Source: Leisingera sp. ANG-M1
Lineage (GTDB): Bacteria > Pseudomonadota > Alphaproteobacteria > Rhodobacterales > Rhodobacteraceae
NCBI RefSeq assembly: GCF_000813745.1
Contig: NZ_JWLC01000017.1
Span: forward strand, 1 to 64,000
Length of the DNA stretch: 64,000 nt
Reading direction: 5' to 3'
Shown here in pieces: positions 7,785-28,328 of this stretch (the stretch's first letter is position 1; each line of letters starts with the position of its first letter). The notes under the pieces were generated by a model. The model was given only the letters and a program-made list of their open reading frames with translations, did not search any database and was not told where the DNA came from. A program made the translations under genes and the position numbers.

Positions 7785-8133
7785 GCGCATCAGCTTACGC
7801 AGGATTGGCGCCTGTCCACCCGGTCAGGCCGCCCGGACGGCGGCCGTGTTGCCACTCGTCTTCATCATGGTTTTGCCGGGGGCAATTCTTCGTGGGGTTC
7901 ATTTGGCTGCAGGGCGCTACTGGCGGTTTGGCCTTTGCTAGCTGCCCGCGCTGTGCAGCAGCAGAGGCCGTTAGCTGCTCCCTTTCTGCCTGACGGCAAA
8001 AGGTGCTGTATTGCTTAAAACCAGTAAGTTTGACTTATCTTTTGCGGTATACAAGTGAATTCAATTGAATGAATCCGGGCGCCTCATTAGCCGTACACAT
8101 ATACAGTTCGCATCCACGCAAAGGGGCAGGCCA
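7785..8133. other. intergenic region with a 12-bp palindrome
   Basis: No gene is seen in about 350 nt. A perfect palindrome, ATTCAATTGAAT at 8059-8070, lies 64 nt before the next start and could be an operator. The sequence around it (8020-8070) is AT-rich and promoter-like. Confidence 0.45.
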
Positions 8134-8655
8134 ATGACGGGTTGGCACGAAAATTTCAATGCAGTTCTTGGGGTTAGCGGCGATGACTGCCCTGTTATCG
8201 GTTGCGGTGTCATCCGCCGGCGGCTGGAACAGAACGGCATCCGGGTGACCAGCTTGGAGGGCGCGGCCAGTAAGGAAAAGCTTGTTTCCGTGGCAAAGCA
8301 AAATGGAGCGGACGCGATCCTGATTTCCTCGAACTACGGGTTCGGGGAGCCAATGTGCCGCGGTCTGCGGGCGCTGTGCGATGAAAACGGCCTGAAGGGG
8401 ATCACGCTTTACGCCGGTGGCAATCTGATGGCTGCAAGCGCGCAGTTTCCTGATGTGGAGCAACGGTTCCGGGCAATGGGATATGACCGGGTGTTTCCGC
8501 CTCTGGTGTCCCTGGCTCTGGTGGCGGAACAGCTGAAAGAAGACATCCGCCGCAAACGGCGCTTTCTGAAGGGGCGCATCGCGGGTCCGGCGCGTCTGCC
8601 GGAGCGGGCAAGCCCGGCCGGCCTCAGCCAGGCCTTTGCCCATATGTATGGCTGA
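8134..8655 (+). CDS. glutamate mutase S-like B12-fold protein lacking the cobalamin histidine
   Basis: 173 residues. It aligns along its length with the small subunit of methylaspartate (glutamate) mutase: start LGVSGDD, then ILISSNYGFGE, then CDENGLKGI, then YAGGNLM and DVEQRFRAMGYDRVFPP. In true S subunits the first motif is D-x-H-x-x-G, whose His is the lower cobalt ligand. Here it reads D-C-P-V-I-G, with CCT (Pro) at 8191-8193. The second motif S-x-L reads S-S-N. The GG motif is intact. No large (GlmE) subunit or MutL is nearby. It has a basic C-terminal tail of about 30 residues. It may bind cobalamin base-on or not at all, so a regulatory or chaperone role is possible. The downstream LysR gene is convergent, 2 nt away. 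Confidence 0.82.
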   Translation: MTGWHENFNAVLGVSGDDCPVIGCGVIRRRLEQNGIRVTSLEGAASKEKLVSVAKQNGADAILISSNYGFGEPMCRGLRALCDENGLKGITLYAGGNLMAASAQFPDVEQRFRAMGYDRVFPPLVSLALVAEQLKEDIRRKRRFLKGRIAGPARLPERASPAGLSQAFAHMYG

Positions 8656-9642: not shown

Positions 9643-10347
9643 TCAAATATGCGTGGTCATCCGGTAGCCCGGTGCAAAGTACAGCTTGGCCAGAGTGACC
9701 GGCGCGCCGCGCAGCCAGGTGATCCGTTCCGCGGTAAACACAGGATCTCCGGCCGGTGCGTCCAAGAATTCGGCAATGGCCTGGTCGGCCTTAGTGGCCA
9801 TGAAGCTGATCTCGAGATTTGTGAACGGCACTTTCTGCACCAGCCAGTCATTGGGACCGGACTGCGTGAAATCGGCCTCCAGCACCTCCGGAATGCTTTC
9901 CGGGATGATCCAGCGCACCTCGTACTGAAAGGGCGCATTGTCGGCGTAATGCATACATCTGATATGCAGCACCTGCCGGCCCTGGGTCAGCTCAAGCCGT
10001 GCTGCCAGCCAGTCCGGCGCCGCCAGCAGGGTCTGCTCAACCAGCGAATACCGGTAGCTTGCACCGGTTTCGGCAATCTCGTCCCGGACCAGCGGGATCG
10101 AGAACTGGGCTTTGCGGACCGGTGCGTTCAGCACTCTGGTGCCGGCCTTCCGCTTGCGTTCAAGATAGCCTTCCTCGGCCAGTTCCCGCAGCGCCCGGTT
10201 CACGGTGGTGCGGGTGCTTGAAAACTCTTCCGCGAGCTCGGTCTCGCTCGGCAGCAGGCTGTCCGGCGCCCAGATCCGGTTTTGGATGCGGTCAACAACC
10301 ACCTGCTTGATATCCCGGTAGCTCATGTTTTCGCGCGCCGCTGCCAT
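9643..10347 (-). CDS. HutC-like GntR regulator (UTRA domain)
   Basis: 234 residues from ATG 10347, chosen because AGAGG lies 4 nt upstream; ATG 10365 is in frame but has no ribosome site. The winged helix (LPSETELAEEFSSTRTTVNR) is followed by a UTRA ligand-binding domain (about residues 85-230: HIRCMHYADNAPFQYEVRW). HutC proteins repress histidine-use genes and bind urocanate. This one is divergent from a histidine ammonia-lyase homologue, so it probably controls that gene and senses its product or substrate. A likely operator lies between them at 10496-10534. Confidence 0.88.
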   Translation of the reverse strand: MAAARENMSYRDIKQVVVDRIQNRIWAPDSLLPSETELAEEFSSTRTTVNRALRELAEEGYLERKRKAGTRVLNAPVRKAQFSIPLVRDEIAETGASYRYSLVEQTLLAAPDWLAARLELTQGRQVLHIRCMHYADNAPFQYEVRWIIPESIPEVLEADFTQSGPNDWLVQKVPFTNLEISFMATKADQAIAEFLDAPAGDPVFTAERITWLRGAPVTLAKLYFAPGYRMTTHI

Positions 10348-10495
10348 TCTGCCTCTCAGGGTCATTAAAAAATTTTATTGGGTATAAAAATACACATAAC
10401 GGGCAGCCAGGGAAGCACATATGAAGCAAAGGTCAAAGCGTCGACCGTGGATCCCTGCCAATCGGGCCGAACGGGTGTGATTTATTCAGTTAAGT

Positions 10496-10534
10496 GTAGA
10501 CATAAATGTTTACGAGCATTACTGGACATTTATG
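10496..10534. promoter_or_regulatory. candidate HutC-type operator
   Basis: GTAGACAT-AA-ATGTTTAC (10496-10513) is an 8-bp inverted repeat with one mismatch. Its core CATAAATGT (10501-10509) recurs inverted as ACATTTATG at 10526-10534. The site lies in the divergent region between the HutC-like gene and the lyase gene, 71 nt before the lyase start. GntR/HutC regulators usually bind such palindromes. Confidence 0.55.
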
Positions 10535-10604
10535 AACAGTTCCGCTCTTCCAACCGGCCTGTACTGCCGCCCTCCGCCTTTCTGTTTGCATCAGGAGCTC
10601 CAGA

Positions 10605-12125
10605 ATGAAGATTGATCCCGCATCGGCGCAATTTTCGACGCAGCCGGTTCTGCTCGACCAGCCGCTCAGCCCGGAGCAGGTCGTTGCGGTTGCCCGCGGC
10701 GCGAGACTTCAGTTGTCGGACGCTGTGGAGCAGCGGATCCGCTATGCCCGCCGGATTGTCGAAGGCCTGGTGGCAGGAGAGGTGCGCGGCTATGGGATTA
10801 ACACCGGTGTTGGCGCCCTGTGTGATGTGATCATCAGCCCTGAGGATCAATCGGCGTTGTCCCGCAACATCCTGTTCAGCCATGCCTGCGGCGTCGGCGA
10901 GCCTCTTGAAGCCGAAGGGGTGCGGGCGATCATGGCGACGCAGATCAACAACTTTGCGCTGGGCAAGTCCGGGATCTCCTGGCAGGCGGTTGAGACCATG
11001 CTGGCCTTGCTGAACGGCGGGGTGACACCGGTGGTGCCGTCGCGCGGCTCGGTGGGCTACCTCACTCACACCGCGGCAATCGGGTTGGTGCTGATCGGTG
11101 CGGGTGAAGCGCTGCTGGACGGTGTGCGGGTCTCCGGTGCCGAAGCGCTGAGGCGGCTTGACCGCAAGCCGCTGGTGCTGGGGGCCAAGGAAGGCCTGAG
11201 CCTGGTGAACGGCACGGTTTGCGGCACCGGGCTGGCCTCGCTGGCGCTGGCGCGGCTGCGCGATCTGGTGGAGTGGGGGGATGCCGCCGGGGCCTTTAGC
11301 TATGAGGTGCTGGCGCGGCAGGAAATGACCTTTCATGGCAGCAGCCAGATGTTCCGGGACACTTCCGGCGTGCGGGGCACCGCCGAAAACATGCAGCGCT
11401 GGCTGGACGGTATGAATGCGCCCGACGCCGGAAGCTTCAGCACCCAGGACCCGCTTAGCCTGCGCGCCATTCCGCAGGTTCACGGCGCCATCCGCGATGA
11501 ACTGGACCAGATCGGCGACGTTCTGACGCAGGAGCTGCGCTATGTCTCTGACAACCCCGCGGTTGCAGGCTCGCCGGAACGCCCGGAGGTTTACAGCCAG
11601 GCCAATGCGGTTGGGGCGTCGGTGGCCTTTGCCAGCGACCGGCTGGCAATCATTGCAGCGCAGCTGGGCGCTATTGCCGAGCGCCGGGTCGACCGGCTGG
11701 TCAACCCGCTGGTCAGCGGCCTGCCTGCTTTTCTGGGCGCCGAGGCCGGGCGCGGCTCGGGTTTCATGATCGCGCAGTACACTGCTGCGGGCTTAAAGGG
11801 GGAAAACCGGATGCTCGCCGTTCCAGCCTCGCTGGCCGGCGGCATCACCTCGGCGCTGCAGGAAGATATGCTGACCCACGCCACGCCAGCAGCGGAAAAA
11901 TCCCTGCGAATTATCCGCAACACCAGGATGATCCTCGCCATCGAACTGCTGTGCGGCGCCCAGGCGCGGGACCTATCCGCCAAGCCCTGCGGGTCGCACC
12001 GCCTGCGCCAGGTCTATGACGCCGTCCGCGCCAGGGTTCCGCTTTATGCGGACGACCGTCCTCTGAGCCAGGATATGGAGCAGATCAGCGCAATGCTGGC
12101 GGCGCAGCGGCCGCCAGACTGTTGA
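10605..12125 (+). CDS. histidine/aromatic ammonia-lyase family protein without the MIO triad
   Basis: 506 residues, the usual HAL length; GGAG lies 7 nt before ATG 10605. HAL landmarks are present: YGINTGVG with catalytic-type Tyr63, SHACGVG, NGT at 202-204, QDPLSLRAIPQVHG at 281-294, and SDNP at 315-318. In active HAL/PAL/TAL enzymes GSVG is followed by Ala-Ser-Gly, which cyclises to the MIO electrophile. Here GSVG (148-151) runs straight into YLTHT, three residues shorter, so MIO cannot form. From the literature as I recall it, ergothionase is a HAL homologue that works without MIO because trimethylamine is a good leaving group. An ergothionase-like or other MIO-free elimination is therefore plausible. 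The HutC-like neighbour supports an imidazole-type substrate. Confidence 0.85.
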   Translation: MKIDPASAQFSTQPVLLDQPLSPEQVVAVARGARLQLSDAVEQRIRYARRIVEGLVAGEVRGYGINTGVGALCDVIISPEDQSALSRNILFSHACGVGEPLEAEGVRAIMATQINNFALGKSGISWQAVETMLALLNGGVTPVVPSRGSVGYLTHTAAIGLVLIGAGEALLDGVRVSGAEALRRLDRKPLVLGAKEGLSLVNGTVCGTGLASLALARLRDLVEWGDAAGAFSYEVLARQEMTFHGSSQMFRDTSGVRGTAENMQRWLDGMNAPDAGSFSTQDPLSLRAIPQVHGAIRDELDQIGDVLTQELRYVSDNPAVAGSPERPEVYSQANAVGASVAFASDRLAIIAAQLGAIAERRVDRLVNPLVSGLPAFLGAEAGRGSGFMIAQYTAAGLKGENRMLAVPASLAGGITSALQEDMLTHATPAAEKSLRIIRNTRMILAIELLCGAQARDLSAKPCGSHRLRQVYDAVRARVPLYADDRPLSQDMEQISAMLAAQRPPDC

Positions 12126-15608: not shown

Positions 15609-18473
15609 TCAGATCAGATCGTCAAAGGCAACCGTTTGGTCGGCAAAAACAAGCAGGTCGATATCCAGCAGCTGATCGCTGCCTTCATAGAAGCCGTCGG
15701 CACCGCCGCTGGCGGCGTCCGTCACCGTCAGCCTGGTGACATCCGCGCCGCGGTTGGAGTCATAATAGGTGTAGCTCTCGAAACTGAAGTCCTCGAAGTT
15801 GCCATCAAAGACCGCACGGTCTTTCCCAGCATCGCCAGAGCCATTCCATGTGTGCCCGTAAAGCCGGTCGTCTCCGAGCCCGCCATACAGCCAGTCGTTG
15901 CCGTCTTCACCATAAAGCCTGTCGTGGCCGTTACCGCCGTACAGGTAGTCCCTGCTGCTGCCGCCGGCCAGCATGTCATCCCCTGACTGGCCAAGCAGCC
16001 TGTCGGTGCCGTCGCCGCCATACAGGCTGTCATCGCCGTATCCGCCCTTGAGCAGGTCATCATTGTCCTTGCCGTAGACCTTGTCGTTGCCGCCCAGGGC
16101 AATCAGCACGTCAGCACCATCGCTGCCGCGCAGGTCATCGCTGCTTCTGGACCCGAACTGAATATCCGTCTTCCGCACTGTTACGTTACCGAAGGCGGCA
16201 AACTCGATTTCCGGTGTCAAATGGGTTGATGCGCCGTCCTTGGTGACAACAATTTCGCCGCTGCTGCGGGTGAACAGGAAAGTGTCCGACCGGCCGCTGA
16301 AATAGGCATAGTTGTCCCGTGCATCATCGCCGAACAGCTGCCCTGCGGTCAGAGCCTGATCAAAGACCGCAATATCGCTGATCGTGCCATCGAAATAGCT
16401 GTGGATCCGGTCGGTTTCACCTGGGGTGTTGCTCCACCCGGATGCCCCTGCAATCAGCGCTTCACTGTTGCCGGTCCAGTCATAAGACAGCTCTGTGTCA
16501 TAAGCGATCCGGGCGCCGTCCAGGTAGATTTCGACGCCGCCTGCGCCAAAGCTGAGGCTGAAGTCATACTCCTGGCCCGGCACCACCGCGTTTTTGGCCG
16601 TGAAATAATGAGAATTTTCCGCGTCCTGCAGCCGCACGATCAGCTCTCCGGATTCGCTGATATAGACTGAGAGATGGCCGCCATCGCCATTGCCCGACGC
16701 ATCCTTGGAGATCAGGGTCTGATAGCTGGACAGGCTGTTGGCAGAAAACCGGAAGGCAATTGTGCCGCTGGAAAGTGCCAGGTCGCTGCTGTGGCCAAAG
16801 ACATAGGCCGACCGCTCCTCCGCTGCAAATTCGTGGTCTCCAGCCGCCGCAAACACTGGCGTTTCCTCGGTTTCCAGGCCCAGGGCCGCCAGGCCGGGCA
16901 GGGCGGCATCCGGTACGGTTATGTCACCGGTGTCCTCGGCGGTGTGTTTGGGGGCGAGGGCCTCGTCGAGGTCGGCGATGCTCTTGACGATGCCATAGGC
17001 GGGGGCGGCGGTGTGCTCGATGTCGGAGCGCTTCACCAGATCGCCGTAGACGGTGATGGTGCCCAGGCGGTCGTCGTTGTGGGCGCCGCCGTTCTTGCCC
17101 TGGTCCGAGTACAGCGCGATCACCGAGTGGTCCATCACCCCGTCGCCGTTGGCATCGCCATAGGTGATCGAGGCGATCTCGGTGGTGTGGCCCTCAATGA
17201 CAATGCGGTCGCCCTCGGCGCGGCTGAAGTCCTGCACCACGTCATGGCCCAGAATGTCGACCCAGTGGTCGTGGATCTTGTCGTTCTCGCCCGCAACCCC
17301 GTGCCAGTTGATGGTGCCGTCATCGCGGGTGTGCTTCTCGATATAGCGCTCCTTGGCGTTGATAAGCGTCTGGAAGTAAAAGATGTCCGCGCCGCTGCCG
17401 CCGACCAGAAGATCATCGCCCGGCACCGGCTGATCGGGGTAGAGCTTGCCGTCGGTCAGCTCGTTCTCCGGGTCGCCCTCGTCGCGGTCCGGGTCGTACC
17501 AGACGGCGCCCTCGCGGCCGTCGGCGCGGCTGATCAGCAGATCGTTGCCGCCGCCGCCCTTCAGGACGTCCTCGCCGTGGCCGCCGTCCAGCACATCGTC
17601 GCCGTAGCTGCCCAGCAGCGTGTCGTTGCCATAGCCGCCCTGCAGCACGTCATCGCCGGCCTTGCCCTTGATCCGGTCGTCGCCGCCGCCGCCGTCGATG
17701 CCGTCATCGCCGCTGGTGCCGCTGACGCTGTTGTCGCCGCCGTAGCGGGTGATCATGTTGAGGCTGCGGCCGAGGTGGCCGTGGTGGCTGACGCCATAGT
17801 CCTGCAGGATCTCCAGGAAGGTGTCGCTGGCGCCGTGCAGCTGGCCGAAGGCCGGGGCCAGATCCGCCATTGCGGCGGCCGCTTTGGCGTCCTGGGCAAG
17901 GCCTGGCAGGGCGTCGTCGGCCAGGGCGATCTGCATGTTTTCGCCAAGCTGGCGGTCGAAGACGCGGACGTCGCCGATGGTGCCCTTGAACAGCGAATGG
18001 GCGTCGTCGTCCTGGCTGCTGCGCCAGGCGCGGGAGCCGCCGATCACCAGCGCATGGGTGTTGCCTTCCAGGCCCTGCTTGAAGCCCGGCTCGGCCGCGG
18101 CCAATGCGCCGTCGAGCCAGATCATCAGCCCGTCTGGGCCGAAGGACAGCGAGATGTGGTAGGTCTGCCCGGCGGACAACACCAGATCCGGAACTTTCAG
18201 ATATTCAGTCTCACCGCCGCCGGACTGGGTGGCCACCAGGGTGCCGTCCTTGACCCACAGGGTGAAATCGCCGTCGCCCGCGCCGCTGCCGTCTTTCGAC
18301 ACCAGCGCCACCTCGCCAGGAAGACGGTCCAGCGAAAAGCTCAGCGAGATCGTGCCGGCAGCCGCTGCAAGGGTTTCTGTATGGCCGATATCCAGAAGAT
18401 CTTCCTGGGCGCCTGTATATTCCCGCGTATTCAGATTCGAAAATACCGGGTCCGGAAAGCTTGTGCCTGCCAC
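15609..18473 (-). CDS. large RTX protein with two LamG-like domains
   Basis: 954 residues. The start is GTG 18473, supported by AAGGAGG 9 nt upstream. Order: LamG-like jelly roll 1 (about 28-180, ending LFKGTIGDVRVFDRQLG), calcium-binding RTX nonapeptides (252-312, GGxGxDxLx type), a middle acidic domain (about 340-500), LamG-like 2 (about 540-712, ending YFDGTISDIAVFDQAL), a second RTX block (777-875) and a Phe/Asp-rich C-terminus ending FDDLI. There is no N-terminal signal, so it is a type I secretion substrate by family rule, though no type I exporter is nearby. LamG folds bind glycans or surfaces, so adhesion or a matrix role is likely. The N-terminal half seems even more GC-rich than the C-terminal half, hinting at a mosaic origin. 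Confidence 0.9.
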   Translation of the reverse strand: MAGTSFPDPVFSNLNTREYTGAQEDLLDIGHTETLAAAAGTISLSFSLDRLPGEVALVSKDGSGAGDGDFTLWVKDGTLVATQSGGGETEYLKVPDLVLSAGQTYHISLSFGPDGLMIWLDGALAAAEPGFKQGLEGNTHALVIGGSRAWRSSQDDDAHSLFKGTIGDVRVFDRQLGENMQIALADDALPGLAQDAKAAAAMADLAPAFGQLHGASDTFLEILQDYGVSHHGHLGRSLNMITRYGGDNSVSGTSGDDGIDGGGGDDRIKGKAGDDVLQGGYGNDTLLGSYGDDVLDGGHGEDVLKGGGGNDLLISRADGREGAVWYDPDRDEGDPENELTDGKLYPDQPVPGDDLLVGGSGADIFYFQTLINAKERYIEKHTRDDGTINWHGVAGENDKIHDHWVDILGHDVVQDFSRAEGDRIVIEGHTTEIASITYGDANGDGVMDHSVIALYSDQGKNGGAHNDDRLGTITVYGDLVKRSDIEHTAAPAYGIVKSIADLDEALAPKHTAEDTGDITVPDAALPGLAALGLETEETPVFAAAGDHEFAAEERSAYVFGHSSDLALSSGTIAFRFSANSLSSYQTLISKDASGNGDGGHLSVYISESGELIVRLQDAENSHYFTAKNAVVPGQEYDFSLSFGAGGVEIYLDGARIAYDTELSYDWTGNSEALIAGASGWSNTPGETDRIHSYFDGTISDIAVFDQALTAGQLFGDDARDNYAYFSGRSDTFLFTRSSGEIVVTKDGASTHLTPEIEFAAFGNVTVRKTDIQFGSRSSDDLRGSDGADVLIALGGNDKVYGKDNDDLLKGGYGDDSLYGGDGTDRLLGQSGDDMLAGGSSRDYLYGGNGHDRLYGEDGNDWLYGGLGDDRLYGHTWNGSGDAGKDRAVFDGNFEDFSFESYTYYDSNRGADVTRLTVTDAASGGADGFYEGSDQLLDIDLLVFADQTVAFDDLI

Positions 18474-21491: not shown

Positions 21492-21831
21492 CCACACTCT
21501 TCTGATTTGCGCCGCTTGCAAAGGGGCGGCTGAAGCCAGCCGGCTGCGCGCAGCCCTCTCGGACCGCATCCCCGGGCGCTTTGCGCTGCGGGCTGTTGAT
21601 TGCATGGCCGGTTGCGGCCGGCCGGTGACGGTGGGCTTTCAGGCTGAGGGCAAAGCCCAATACCTCTTTGGCGGCATCCAGTCCCCGGCGGACACCGAAG
21701 CACTGGCCCGCTTTGCGCACCAGTACCTGGCAAGCGAAACCGGATGGACCAATGCCAGCGAACGCCCGGCCCAGCTTTTTGACAAGACCCTGGCCCGGCT
21801 GCCGCGGATCAAGGCGGAGGCCGCGCCATGA
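21475..21831 (+). CDS. DUF1636 predicted metal-binding protein
   Basis: 118 residues with cysteines in the DUF1636 pattern (LICAACKGA near residue 10, VDCMAGCGRPV near 42). This small family often sits in cobalamin gene clusters and may bind a metal or Fe-S cluster. Its ATG overlaps the leader ORF, and its stop overlaps the ATPase start (ATGA), so the genes form one tightly coupled operon under the cobalamin riboswitch. Confidence 0.82.
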   Translation: MLEFRDHTLLICAACKGAAEASRLRAALSDRIPGRFALRAVDCMAGCGRPVTVGFQAEGKAQYLFGGIQSPADTEALARFAHQYLASETGWTNASERPAQLFDKTLARLPRIKAEAAP

Positions 21832-22616
21832 CCGCTTCGCAGCCTTTCCTCAGCGTGCGCGGCCTGGAATATTACGCGCTGAACGGCGACGCTCTGGTAA
21901 GCGATGTCTCCTTCGATCTGGACAAGGGCGCCGTTCTTGCCATCGCCGGTCCCAACGGAGCAGGCAAGTCAACATTGTTGAACCTCCTGTCCGGGATCGA
22001 GCCGCTGGCGCTTGGCGATGTGCTGGTCGGCGGGCAGAGCCTGCGGCAGATGAAGGCCGGGGAACGTGCCCGGATGATCGCCATTGTTAGCCAGCAGTCC
22101 GCACCCGACGGGCGGCTGCTCTTGCGCGACTATGTGGCGCTGGGGCAGATGCCGCTGGCCCGGACGCGCCCGGCTGAGCAGGATGCCGCGGCGCTGGCCC
22201 GCATTCTTGATCTCACCGGCCTGGCGCATAAGGCCGGCAAGCCAATGGCCCAGCTCTCCGGCGGCGAGCGCCAGCGCGCCCATATTGCCCGCGCTCTGGC
22301 GCAGGAGCCTGCCCTTCTGGTGCTGGATGAGCCGACCAACCACCTGGACCCGGACGCAAAGGGGCGGATGCTGTCGCTGGTCGCCTCGCTGGGGGTCACC
22401 GTGGTGATGGTGGTGCATGATCTGGTGATGATCCCCGAGTTCGCCACCCATGCGGCGCTGATGAAGGCCACCCGCCTCACCGCCTTTGGGCCGGCTGCCG
22501 AGGTGCTGACACCTGAAAGCGTGCAGGACACCTTTGGTGTCAGCTACCTGCGCTTGCCTCATGAAGGGCGGATGATCCCCGCCCTCGATATCCGGAAATC
22601 CCAAATTCAATTCTGA
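21828..22616 (+). CDS. btuD: ABC importer ATPase, cobalamin type
   Basis: 262 residues. Walker A GPNGAGKST (about 45), Q-loop VSQQ, signature LSGGERQR (about 143), Walker B LLVLDEP (about 163) and the H-loop VVHD are all present. It belongs to the Fe3+-siderophore/cobalamin importer ATPases. It powers uptake through the BtuC-type permease encoded two genes on. The riboswitch upstream makes cobalamin or a cobinamide precursor the likely cargo. Confidence 0.88.
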   Translation: MTASQPFLSVRGLEYYALNGDALVSDVSFDLDKGAVLAIAGPNGAGKSTLLNLLSGIEPLALGDVLVGGQSLRQMKAGERARMIAIVSQQSAPDGRLLLRDYVALGQMPLARTRPAEQDAAALARILDLTGLAHKAGKPMAQLSGGERQRAHIARALAQEPALLVLDEPTNHLDPDAKGRMLSLVASLGVTVVMVVHDLVMIPEFATHAALMKATRLTAFGPAAEVLTPESVQDTFGVSYLRLPHEGRMIPALDIRKSQIQF

Positions 22617-22632
22617 CTGATGGAGACGTGAA

Positions 22633-23577
22633 ATGAAACTGATCTGGACGGCTGCCGTTGCAGCCAGCCTGGCCACCGGTGCTGCTGCCGGGGTGACGGT
22701 CGACAACTGCGGCGCACCGCTGGAATTCGAGACCCAGCCCGAACGCCTCGTGGTGCATGACATCAACATGTCCGAAATGGCCTTTGCCCTGGGCCTGCAG
22801 GACAAGATGGTCGGTGTCACCGGCATCACCGGCTGGTATAAGACCAGCCCCGAGTTCGATGCGGCGCGCGGCGATATCCCGGAACTGGCGCCCAAGTATC
22901 CGACCATTGAGAACCTGGTGGCGGCCAAGGCCGACCTGTTCTTTGCCGGCTGGTACTACGGCATGAAGCCCGGCGGCGACGTGACCCCGGACACACTGGC
23001 GCCTTTCGGCATCAAGACCATGGTGCTGACCGAAAGCTGCGTGCATCTGGACAAAGAGCGCCCCGCCGCAAGCATGGACCTCTTGTTCAATGACGTGCTG
23101 CGCCTGGGCCAGGTGATGCATGTCGAGGACAAGGCCGAAGCTCTGGTGGCCGGCTGGCAAGAGCAGCTGGCAGCCATCGAAGCCAAGACCGCGGACCTGC
23201 CTAAGCCCCGCGTCTTCATGCTGGACGGCCCGGCGGATGCGCCTTTCACCGCCGGCAAATTCGCCATTCCGGACGCAATGATCGCAGCGGCAGGCGGCGA
23301 GAGCGTCACCCACGGTCTCGACACCAGCTGGGGCCGCACCTCCTGGGAAGCGGTTGCCGCCGCCAACCCGGAATTCCTGGTTCTCTTGGACTACCAGAAC
23401 GGCAACGGCGCCGAGGACACCTTTAAGTTCCTGCAGGAGCACCCGGTGATGGCCCACACTGACGCAGTCAAGAACGCCCGCTGGGTTGGCCTGCGCTATG
23501 AAGAGCTGACCCCTGGGCCGGCAAACATTGCTGCGATCGAAAAGATCGCCAAGGCAATGCACCCGGATCTGTTCTGA
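22633..23577 (+). CDS. btuF: cobalamin-type periplasmic binding protein
   Basis: 314 residues with a signal peptide (start MKLIWTAAVAASLATGAAAG). It is a class III (BtuF/FhuD-type) binding protein with two lobes and a long connecting helix. It delivers corrinoid to the permease. It sits between the ATPase and permease genes, 16 nt after the former and 1 nt before the latter. Residues contacting B12 cannot be assigned by eye. Confidence 0.85.
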   Translation: MKLIWTAAVAASLATGAAAGVTVDNCGAPLEFETQPERLVVHDINMSEMAFALGLQDKMVGVTGITGWYKTSPEFDAARGDIPELAPKYPTIENLVAAKADLFFAGWYYGMKPGGDVTPDTLAPFGIKTMVLTESCVHLDKERPAASMDLLFNDVLRLGQVMHVEDKAEALVAGWQEQLAAIEAKTADLPKPRVFMLDGPADAPFTAGKFAIPDAMIAAAGGESVTHGLDTSWGRTSWEAVAAANPEFLVLLDYQNGNGAEDTFKFLQEHPVMAHTDAVKNARWVGLRYEELTPGPANIAAIEKIAKAMHPDLF

Positions 23578-25130: not shown

Positions 25131-28100
25131 ATGGGTAAACTGTTTTCCTACCGCAACCGGCCGGTGCACCTGGGCCCGTACCCGCTGGAAACCCTCGCAC
25201 GCCAGGCAGAACCCGCAGGTCTGGATGAAATCCCGCTGCTGCAGCAGATCCCCTTCCGCCGCCCCGGGGCGCCCTTGTCCATCGTCAACGCGATGCGCGA
25301 TTACCAGGCGATGCTGGATGCGACCCGCGAGGGGCTGGTGAAGAAAGAACGCGCCGCCATTCCTGCAGATCCGCAGGAGCGCGCCGACCACCTCAAGGCC
25401 TTCGGCTATTACTGCGACGCCTCGCTGGCCGGCACTTGCGCGGTGCCGCATTCCGCCTGGCTGGACGCGCCGCTGGTCAACCCGGATGTGGATGCGCTGG
25501 CCGAAACCCTGCGCTCCAAGCAGACCCAGACCTTTGCCTCTGGTATCGACGTGGTGCTGGCTTCCCTGCGCGAAGCGATGAAGGCGCCGCCGGCCAGCTG
25601 CCGCCACCACCCGCACGCCCTGGTCTTCGTCTATGAGTTTCCCCGCGACCCCGAGGCCGGGGAGGAAGGCACCGATTGGCTCGCCGATGCGCAGGATCAG
25701 CGCGCCTGCCTGCGCGCCGCGGAAACCGTGGTGACACTTGCCAACTACATCCGCCTGCTGGGCTGGGAGGCCCGGGCCCACACCGGCGCCGCTACCGACG
25801 TGCATCTGGGCAAGCTGGCGGTGCAGGCAGGCCTTGCAACCTATGAGAACGGCACGCTTACCAACCCGTTCCTTGGCAGCCGCTTTGGCATCGCCGCGAT
25901 CACCACCACGCTGGAGCTGGCGCCGGACCTGCCGCTGGTTCCAGGTCAGGCGCCGGGCCTGAAATACCGCCTTGGCCTTGGCACCCATGCCAAAAGCGCC
26001 GCAAACCGCGATCCCTATGCCAAACGCCGCTTCATGGACGGCCCGCATCCGTATGAAACCCTGAAACGCGTCTCCGACCCAACCACTTACATCGATGAGC
26101 CCAACGTCGCCCGGGTGCCCAAGCGTGCCGACATGTTCGCCCGTGCCCTGTTTGGCGACATGGGCAAAGGCCCGCAGGAAGCCGCCAAAAACGGCAACTA
26201 CGTCCGCAAGTCATCGGCCTCCTTTGCTTTCCGCCCCTCGCTTGCGGCCTTTGTCCTGCTGCAGGACGGCGAGGCCGCCCCGCAGATCGACCCCAGCGCC
26301 GCGGATGCCGCCCGTAACGCCGTCAATATCAAGGCCGCCGCCTATTTCCTCGGTTGCGATGCGGTGGGCATCTCGCGCTGCCCGGACTGGGCCTATTACT
26401 CGCACGACGCGGCGGGCGCGCCGCTGGCCCCGTACCACGAAAACGCGATCAGCATGATCATCGACCAGGGCCACGAAACCATGGAGGGCGCCTCCGGCGA
26501 TGACTGGATCGCCTGCGCCCAGTCGATGCGCGCCTACCTGCGGTTCTCGCTGCTGGGCGGGGTGATCGCGCAGCAGATCCGCAACCTCGGCTACACCGCC
26601 CGGGTGCATTCGGTGATGGACGGCGAGGTGCTGCAGCCGCCGCTGCTGCTGCTCTCGGGCCTCGGCGAGGTCTCCCGCATCGGCGAGGTGATCCTGAACC
26701 CCTTCCTCGGCCCCCGGCTGAAGTCCGGCGCCGTCACCACCAACCTGCCGATGACCTGCGATCTGCCTGTGGACTTTGGCCTGCAGCGCTTCTGCGAAGC
26801 CTGCAACAAATGCGCCCGCGAATGCCCTTCGGGTGCCATAACCGCTGGGCCGAAACTGATGTTCAACGGCTACGAGATCTGGAAGTCCGACAGCCAGAAA
26901 TGCACCACCTACCGGGTCGGCACCCCCGGCGGCGCCATGTGCGGCCGCTGCATGAAGACCTGCCCCTGGAACCTTGAGGGCCTGTTTGCCGAGGCGCCGT
27001 TCCGCTGGGCCGCGATGAACCTGCCGGGCAGCGCCAAGGCGCTGGCAAAACTCGATGACGCGCTGGGCAACGGTGAGGTCAACAAGGCCAAGAAATGGTG
27101 GTGGGATCTCGAAATGGTGGACGAGGGCCCCTATGACCCTTCTCCGCACCCTGTAAATGACCGCAAGCTGTCCAAGGACCTGGACTTGAAGTTCGAGGAC
27201 CAGACCCTGGCGGTCTACCCGGCTCCGCTGGCGCCGCCGCCCTACGCCTGGCCCGCCCCGATGGACCGGGAGGCTGGGATTGCAGCCTACCAGAACATGA
27301 TCACGGCCCAGGAGCACAAGCGCCGCCGCACTGCAGGCCTGCCCCCCGAACACATCTATACCGCCGATCAGGGCGACGCACCGGTGATGCGGATACGCCT
27401 GTCGAAAGTCGAGCACATGACGGACAGCGTCACCAAATACGAGTTCTCTTTGCCGGACGGCTCCCCGCTGCCCCCGGCCGCCGCGGGCGCCCATATCGAT
27501 GTGGTTGTGGCACCTGAGTTCTTCCGCCAGTACTCGCTCTCTGGCGACCCCGCCGACCGTTCGAAATACCAGATCGCGGTGCTGCGGGAAGAGGAGGGGC
27601 GGGGCGGCTCCAAGCTCATGCACCGGATTTTCGAAGAAGGCCGGATGGTGTTCATCTCCAAGCCCATCAATCACTTCCCGCTGCAGGAGGATGCCGCCAA
27701 AACCTACCTCATGGGCGGCGGCATCGGGGTGACGCCGATGATCGCCATGGCGCACCGGCTGCATGCCTTGGGCAAGGACTTCGAATTCCGCTACTCTTGT
27801 TCGAAAAAGTCAAATGCGGGGTTTCTCGAAGACCTGAAGACCGTTCCGTGGACTGAGAAAGTGCATCTTCATTTCTCCGATCAGGGCTCCCGCGCCGACC
27901 TGAAACAGGTGTTGAAATACGCGCCTGGCAGCCATGTCTACACCTGCGGGCCGGACGCCTACATGCAGGCGGTGCTTGATACCGCCCGCGAAAACGGCTT
28001 CCCGGAAGAGACTCGGCATATGGAGTATTTCTCGGTTCCCGAGCAGCCGGAATACGAGAACCACGCTTTCACCCTGAAGCTGGCAAAGTCGGGCCGCGAG

Positions 28101-28328
28101 ATCATCGTGCCCGCTGAAAAGACCGCAGCAGACGTTTTGCTGGAGCAGGGATTTCATGTGGACGTGAAATGCTCTGACGGCATCTGCGGCGTCTGCAAAT
28201 GCGGGCTGATTTCGGGTGAGGCCGAACACCGCGATTTCGTGCTCTCCAACAAGCAGCGCGAAGAAGAAATCATCCTGTGCCAGTCCCGCGCCTTGCAGCC
28301 GGACGGGGTGCTGGAGATCGATCTGTAA
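25131..28328 (+). CDS. self-sufficient cobalamin-dependent reductive dehalogenase
   Basis: 1065 residues with no Tat signal, so cytoplasmic. Residues 1-540 hold the reductive-dehalogenase fold, with two related halves (200-265, TNPFLGSRFGIAAITT; 475-540, LNPFLGPRLKSGAVTT). Two 4Fe-4S clusters follow: C555-x2-C558-x2-C561-x3-C565 and C591...C604-x2-C607-x3-C611. A phthalate-dioxygenase-reductase part (about 750-950; FFRQYSLSGDP, MGGGIGVTPM, CGPDAYM) and a plant-type 2Fe-2S domain (C1014, C1019, C1022, C1050) complete it. This is the layout of catabolic enzymes such as RdhA of Nitratireductor and BhbA of Comamonas: NAD(P)H electrons pass by flavin and Fe-S to cob(II)alamin, which removes halogen from phenols or benzoates. 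The B12 importer genes lie just upstream. The substrate is unknown. Confidence 0.93.
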   Translation: MGKLFSYRNRPVHLGPYPLETLARQAEPAGLDEIPLLQQIPFRRPGAPLSIVNAMRDYQAMLDATREGLVKKERAAIPADPQERADHLKAFGYYCDASLAGTCAVPHSAWLDAPLVNPDVDALAETLRSKQTQTFASGIDVVLASLREAMKAPPASCRHHPHALVFVYEFPRDPEAGEEGTDWLADAQDQRACLRAAETVVTLANYIRLLGWEARAHTGAATDVHLGKLAVQAGLATYENGTLTNPFLGSRFGIAAITTTLELAPDLPLVPGQAPGLKYRLGLGTHAKSAANRDPYAKRRFMDGPHPYETLKRVSDPTTYIDEPNVARVPKRADMFARALFGDMGKGPQEAAKNGNYVRKSSASFAFRPSLAAFVLLQDGEAAPQIDPSAADAARNAVNIKAAAYFLGCDAVGISRCPDWAYYSHDAAGAPLAPYHENAISMIIDQGHETMEGASGDDWIACAQSMRAYLRFSLLGGVIAQQIRNLGYTARVHSVMDGEVLQPPLLLLSGLGEVSRIGEVILNPFLGPRLKSGAVTTNLPMTCDLPVDFGLQRFCEACNKCARECPSGAITAGPKLMFNGYEIWKSDSQKCTTYRVGTPGGAMCGRCMKTCPWNLEGLFAEAPFRWAAMNLPGSAKALAKLDDALGNGEVNKAKKWWWDLEMVDEGPYDPSPHPVNDRKLSKDLDLKFEDQTLAVYPAPLAPPPYAWPAPMDREAGIAAYQNMITAQEHKRRRTAGLPPEHIYTADQGDAPVMRIRLSKVEHMTDSVTKYEFSLPDGSPLPPAAAGAHIDVVVAPEFFRQYSLSGDPADRSKYQIAVLREEEGRGGSKLMHRIFEEGRMVFISKPINHFPLQEDAAKTYLMGGGIGVTPMIAMAHRLHALGKDFEFRYSCSKKSNAGFLEDLKTVPWTEKVHLHFSDQGSRADLKQVLKYAPGSHVYTCGPDAYMQAVLDTARENGFPEETRHMEYFSVPEQPEYENHAFTLKLAKSGREIIVPAEKTAADVLLEQGFHVDVKCSDGICGVCKCGLISGEAEHRDFVLSNKQREEEIILCQSRALQPDGVLEIDL

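Follow-up and report, generated by a model that had tools for sequence, protein, structure and literature searches.

A MIO-free relative of histidine ammonia-lyase in Leisingera sp. ANG-M1 as a candidate hercynine trimethylamine-lyase

The 64,000-bp stretch of Leisingera sp. ANG-M1 DNA analysed here (contig NZ_JWLC01000017.1; further referred to as the window) encodes a 506-aa protein with the HAL/PAL fold domain PF00221 (465 bits) that lacks the MIO-forming Ala-Ser-Gly (ASG) triad. Its gene starts with ATG and occupies positions 10605..12125 of the plus strand. This lyase is probably a MIO-free trimethylamine-lyase that converts hercynine to urocanate for the Hut pathway. The observations behind this reading are the loss of the loop and its conservation, the conservation of residues, the clade, the gene context and the genome content; from these we infer the substrate, the product, the roles of individual residues and the control by HutC.

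The lyase gene, its shortened loop and the window

The initial annotation described a histidine ammonia-lyase (HAL) homologue without Ala-Ser-Gly, and the loop was confirmed. Residues G148-S149-V150-G151 are followed immediately by Y152-L-T-H-T (junction 11057/11058); the codons of G148-S149-V150-G151-Y152 lie at 11046..11060 of the plus strand and are aligned with GSVG-ASG-D of HAL. Compared with GSVG-ASG-DLAPL of HAL the loop is three residues shorter, and compared with the ergothionase loop, two residues shorter. Alignment with both enzymes, proposed in the initial annotation, gave GSVGASGDLAPL for Pseudomonas putida HAL, SSIGE-GDITTL for Treponema ergothionase and GSVGY---LTHT for the window lyase; the loss of ASG stood, and the loop differs from that of ergothionase (GY---L vs GE-GDI). 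A second MIO-less paralogue from the same genome reads GSIGA-ADLVLN in this alignment. The loss may have removed ASG with a replacement of Asp145 by Tyr, or removed SGD with a replacement of Ala142 by Tyr; the alignment fits both equally.

At least 573 relatives of the window lyase were found and the best 80 were taken; most belong to Paraburkholderia or Rhizobium and should not be counted as independent cases. The short GY loop is present in all 80 of these best relatives (79 by pattern, the 80th, L071, reading GSAGYLIH), and so is Tyr152. Five more clade members from a plasmid collection also have the short loop. Sinorhizobium meliloti strains Ak57 and 4H41 likewise carry a clade member. Its presence throughout the best 80 of at least 573 relatives excludes a sequencing error, namely the nine bases missing at 11058 that the initial annotation had considered. 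The dN/dS ratio between the window lyase and the 89% identical gene of Leisingera sp. ANG-Vp equals 0.09 over 505 codons, and the gene is under purifying selection. Decay of the lyase is ruled out by this ratio and by the loop kept in 80/80 best relatives, as the initial annotation had supposed.

The window lyase scores 440 bits with the hutH equivalog model TIGR01225, under the cut-off of 539.15. Among the 40 plasmid matches listed, 20 were named, every one as "histidine ammonia-lyase", and the other 20 were nameless. A survey of 149 genomes of the own family (Rhodobacteraceae), evenly drawn out of a larger group, found a window-type lyase at E 1e-120 in one genome, that of ANG-M1 itself; the distribution within the family looks sporadic.

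Other genes of the window were noted in passing. A 1065-aa protein (25131-28328, plus strand) matches PDB entry 4ras over 159-729 (534 bits) and, more weakly, the tetrachloroethene reductive dehalogenase PceA (106 bits). Its dehalogenase part is followed by a phthalate-dioxygenase-reductase-like module, and we take it to be a self-sufficient catabolic reductive dehalogenase. A Roseobacter debrominase is the subject of a 2026 paper (PMC13101508). Upstream of it are a periplasmic-binding-protein gene (22633-23577) and an ABC ATPase gene (21828-22616, recognised by eye), both possibly serving B12 uptake. The gene at 8065-8655 (plus strand) encodes a B12-binding protein that resembles subunit S of methylaspartate mutase and exceeds the NF002612 cut-off while staying under that of TIGR01501; a similar protein also adjoins a LysR gene in locus L004. 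A large protein with RTX-like glycine-aspartate repeats, seen by eye, is encoded at 15609-18473 (minus strand).

Pocket residues, predicted structure and phylogeny

Six pocket residues of HAL are invariant in the best 80 of at least 573 relatives: Y63, H93, N202, Q281, R287 and E420 (HAL Y53, H83, N195, Q277, R283 and E414, respectively). H425 and Y392 are also invariant in this set, and H155 is present in 79 of the 80. Three further positions deviate from HAL. Leu284 (HAL Tyr280) is leucine in 79 of the best 80 relatives and methionine in one, while Ala335 (HAL Phe329) and Val336 (HAL His330) are each found in 80/80. In 11 other aligned MIO-less rows, ergothionase included, the Tyr280 position is occupied by Leu (nine rows) or Glu (two rows). 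Since the P. putida HAL row is an F329A mutant entry, Phe329 was taken from HutH rows. Hence the initial annotation, according to which all other HAL landmarks are kept, holds for YGINTG, NGT, QDPxSLR and SDNP and fails for Tyr280, Phe329 and His330.

P. putida HAL/HutH provides the closest solved folds by both sequence and structure, and shares with the window lyase the six pocket residues and the hut context. It differs from the window lyase in having ASG, Asp145, Tyr280, Phe329 and His330; moreover, the genome of ANG-M1 carries a separate HutH. The loss of the cofactor loop together with Tyr280, Phe329 and His330 would suit a paralogue that has lost catalysis and is retained for a binding or regulatory role, but this explanation is highly improbable given the dN/dS of 0.09, the six pocket residues invariant in the best 80 relatives and, in Paracoccus and Caballeronia, the place of the lyase among consecutive Hut enzyme genes.

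The AlphaFold2 model of the window lyase, a structure prediction suggested in the initial annotation, has the HAL fold (pLDDT 86.8, pTM 0.90, 31 sequences); in residues 413-419, which adjoin E420, pLDDT is below 50. The best Foldseek match by E-value was HAL 1eb4 (TM 0.86), and ergothionase 6s7j ranked 19 (TM 0.88, 28% identity).

Phylogenetic trees were built for 41 rows and then for 44 rows, the larger set also including tyrosine aminomutase and two more HALs of solved structure. The clade of the window lyase (20 rows) forms a single branch with support 100/100 in both trees, and joins the MIO enzymes with support 100/99 (41 rows) and 100/100 (44 rows). Placing it in one clade with Treponema ergothionase and the lyases of L122 and L123 lowers the log-likelihood by 75.8 and is rejected (p-AU 2.1e-6). 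The row of ergothionase 6s7j is partial (residues 121-485) and has a long branch and odd composition, and the ergothionase rows group only together with L126/L129 (86/86 and 94/88). The latter represent a further MIO-less type with the loop GT(L/V)GE-GDL on a long branch (L126 6912-8327, L129 6067-7518). A single change accounts for the MIO rows in the 41-row tree and two are required in the 44-row tree, where forcing these rows into one clade gives p-AU 0.22. These trees appear compatible both with MIO having been lost from within the MIO enzymes and with a divergence before MIO.

Treponema denticola ergothionase (6s7j) resembles the window lyase in having the HAL fold without ASG, Leu at the Tyr280 position, and the Arg283 and Glu414 positions kept. 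In contrast to the window lyase, it has the motif G-E-(G/A)-D, Ser in place of Asn195, the original Phe329 and Glu in place of His330. Its nearest relatives in our data, the lyases of L122 and L123 (38% identity), are accompanied by a urocanase passing the thiourocanate hydratase model. Another ergothionase-like lyase, annotated as hutH and 59% identical to that of L123, is found on Sinorhizobium meliloti pSymA (L146 8929-10569), near a gene annotated as dimethylsulfoniopropionate lyase and ABC transporter genes. The initial annotation had proposed elimination of trimethylamine from a betaine by the precedent of ergothionase. Trimethylamine loss from a histidine betaine still fits the window lyase best; orthology with Treponema ergothionase is contradicted by the tree, the loop and the content of the own genome.

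Gene context and the choice of substrate

The lyase gene is divergent from a HutC repressor gene (9643..10365, minus strand; TIGR02018, 265 bits with the cut-off 220), which bears out the HutC-like regulator of the initial annotation. This is the only HutC over the cut-off in the own genome, the next best scoring 110.8 bits. In the window HutC alone adjoins the lyase; no transporter and no Hut enzyme is adjacent. The shared intergenic region (10366..10604) contains an imperfect palindrome, GTAGACATAAATGTTTAC, at 10496-10513, which is a possible operator. At up to two mismatches it has a unique place in the genome, and a backwards control pattern also matches once; at three mismatches, 7 out of 100 shuffled versions of the window contained a match. 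The palindrome was not found at L004, and the one in the hutI promoter is different.

Three PF00221 genes are present in the own genome: an ASG-bearing HutH on contig C12, the window lyase, and the second MIO-less paralogue on contig C23. HutI, HutG and HutU, each above its NCBIfam cut-off, are also encoded on C12, and HutF, on C5. The genome has one urocanase, which scores 942 bits with HutU (cut-off 375), 672 with thiourocanate hydratase NF058530 (cut-off 930) and 676 with S-methyl thiourocanate hydratase (cut-off 880). The searches of this genome returned no S-Me-THD_N match and no match to the EgtD family (PF10017); given the latter, hercynine would need an outside source. The second paralogue (loop GSIGAADL; L100 604-2133, minus strand) occurs also in L004 (2871-4475). 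It adjoins a gene that, by eye, is ornithine-cyclodeaminase-like; in L100 its neighbours also include a GST gene and an MttB-family gene, the latter scoring 343 against a trimeth_pyl cut-off of 525. In Leisingera ANG-Vp some 6 kb separate this paralogue from the window-type lyase.

The gene context was scanned in 80 loci (those of the best 80 of at least 573 relatives) within at most 10 kb per side, some of them ended by contig ends, and the counts are lower bounds; operons are understood here as gene order and strand alone. At least one of HutC, HutU, HutI and HutF was found in 74 of the 80 loci. HutC with at least 50% identity to one of five reference HutCs, all of which pass TIGR02018, is present in 65 loci, including three reference loci and one fragment (L033). 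HutF was found in 19, HutI in 13 and HutG in 12 of these 80 loci. A urocanase nearer to HutU is encoded in 16 and one nearer to Agrobacterium Uro2 in none, and 71 loci have an ABC transporter (HisJQ type in 66, ProXW type in five). A desulfurase of the ergothioneine pathway, S-Me-THD or DUF917, was found in 0/80 loci even at E 1e-5. Six of the 80 loci (L005, L027, L028, L037, L051 and L077) have no hut gene; in Tritonibacter (L005) not even HutC is near the lyase.

The most complete arrangements come from two genera. In Paracoccus shanxieyensis (L036) HutC-HutF is divergent from an operon HutI-HutG-HutU-ProXW-type transporter-lyase, with HutC and the four enzymes over their cut-offs. Seven Caballeronia loci have the order transporter-lyase-HutU-HutI-HutF-HutG, with HutU, HutI and HutF of L047 over cut-off. 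The urocanases encoded in L036, L047 and the own genome reach 936-945 with HutU (cut-off 375) and 665-673 with thiourocanate hydratase (cut-off 930).

The initial annotation named ergothioneine and hercynine as candidate substrates. The gene context favours hercynine, because HutC, HutF and HutU are neighbours of the lyase and because the sole urocanase of the own genome passes the HutU model and fails that of thiourocanate hydratase, and no S-Me-THD-family desulfurase was found there; the partners expected for ergothioneine are thus absent from the own genome. Still, C2-substituted betaines remain the main rival. In such a case the window lyase would take trimethylamine off S-methyl-ergothioneine, ergothioneine or ergothioneine sulfonate while belonging to a clade other than that of Treponema ergothionase. 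According to PMC13405746, ergothionase occurs in Burkholderia and Agrobacterium radiobacter; an ergothioneine sulfonate pathway of the latter species is cited there by title. A case in point is A. tumefaciens pAt, for whose record the plasmid search gave one lyase place (L084). This lyase belongs to the same clade, is 52% identical to the window lyase and has the same loop and pocket residues, but its neighbours are ert genes of the S-methyl-thiourocanate type rather than genes matching hut models. The urocanase scores 976 with S-methyl thiourocanate hydratase, above the cut-off of 880, and falls short of the plain thiourocanate model (725/930); further neighbours pass S-methyl thiohydantoin desulfurase (555/450), ErtD (783/600) and ErtE (576/520). 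By inference, the substrate of the pAt lyase would be S-methyl-ergothioneine, which like hercynine is an aromatic imidazole and not a thione. Clade members on plasmids of Rhizobium daejeonense and ACO-34A are located beside molybdenum-hydroxylase-like genes, with no hut-annotated gene except the lyase. In view of these plasmids and of the pAt cluster, which indicates that part of the clade may be active on a C2-sulfur betaine, the clade may not have a single substrate.

Urocanases were then compared in 16 genomes chosen for diversity from those of the best 80 of at least 573 relatives. Twelve of these have one copy, which is HutU-like, and four (G002, G003, G011 and G012) have two. All 16 first copies share 67-100% identity with Paracoccus HutU and 47-51% with Agrobacterium Uro2. 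For the four second copies the values are 47-49% with HutU and 51-54% with Uro2; this margin is small, and the curated thiourocanate hydratase model is passed by all four (1039-1046, cut-off 930). At a distance of about 2-5 kb from each second copy there is another MIO-less lyase, either ergothionase-like (L122, L123) or of a "GC-AD" type (L124, L125); also nearby are genes of a desulfurase, an amidohydrolase and a Zn-hydrolase, which in L122 pass thiohydantoin desulfurase, ErtD and ErtE. Hence the four genomes have a window-type lyase and, elsewhere, a cluster of another lyase clade with thiourocanate hydratase, which suggests a division of substrates between the two systems. The third MIO-less type (GSIGC-AD) is encoded at L124 7131-8561 and L125 3517-4887, beside genes passing thiourocanate hydratase, so that ert-type clusters host three lyase lineages (L124/L125, L122/L123 and L084). 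The S-Me-THD family alone is no clean marker, since its genes occur in 7 of the 17 genomes searched, including G007, G008 and G013 with a single urocanase.

Taken with these data, action of the window lyase on a C2-sulfur betaine is unlikely: a Uro2-like urocanase or desulfurase was found in none of the 80 loci and neither in the own genome, 12 of the 16 sampled genomes have a single HutU-like urocanase, and in the four genomes with thiourocanate hydratase that gene is accompanied by a lyase of another clade. The failure of hut-type urocanases in the thiourocanate model raises the hercynine reading and lowers its rival, even the Agrobacterium exception being of the S-methyl kind.

In 16 of the 80 loci (15 by the distance test, L049 added separately) the gene immediately downstream of the lyase is N-methyl-tryptophan-oxidase-like; these loci are all from Rhizobium, Phyllobacterium and Rhizobiales. 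The gene at L029 11511-12659 scores 413 bits with the N-methyl-L-tryptophan oxidase model (cut-off 257), and homologues are present at 15 similar loci. This neighbour hints at partly methylated amino acids and, along with the retained HAL pocket residues, is consistent with action on another histidine derivative, e.g. N-alpha-mono- or dimethylhistidine, or with a MIO-free histidine ammonia-lyase. We find these options quite improbable. With an ASG-bearing HutH in the own genome, in G001 (Paracoccus) and in G004 (Caballeronia sp. dw_276), there would be no need for a second histidine lyase, and we know of no precedent in the HAL fold for the loss of NH3 without MIO. In both G001 and G004 the only urocanase found adjoins the window-type lyase and HutH is encoded elsewhere, hence the window-type lyase is no mere replacement of HutH.

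Proposed reaction and its significance

Under the hercynine reading, the window lyase would remove trimethylamine from hercynine (N-alpha-trimethylhistidine) without MIO, yielding urocanate, which would be converted to glutamate by the ordinary HutU, HutI, HutF and HutG. We take the residue roles of HAL to carry over by HAL numbering. R287 (HAL R283) would then hold the hercynine carboxylate, H93 and E420 (HAL H83 and E414) would hold the imidazole, and Y63 (HAL Y53) would take the beta proton. The N(CH3)3+ group may sit in the space freed by the loss of MIO and the change of Phe329 to Ala335, against the invariant Tyr152, and would depart as neutral trimethylamine. The lyase gene would be controlled by HutC, whose usual inducer is urocanate.

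For the clade as a whole, we put the chances as about even that it comprises a hercynine trimethylamine-lyase with an S-methyl-ergothioneine offshoot, which became MIO-free by a route other than that of ergothionase (Tyr for the MIO alanine and a three-residue deletion) and serves in proteobacteria as a second entry, by way of a betaine, to histidine catabolism under HutC. Among the matches listed from the open-licence literature, no description of a HAL-fold enzyme cleaving hercynine or histidine betaine was found; a subscription paper could exist.

If the proposal is true, there is a dedicated enzyme for the breakdown of hercynine, the sulfur-free counterpart of ergothioneine, and this betaine can enter the Hut pathway; the HAL fold, in turn, has more than one way to function without MIO. 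The name "histidine ammonia-lyase" would then need correction in rhizobial and Burkholderia-group genomes, and bacteria with a window-type lyase may feed on trimethylated histidine.
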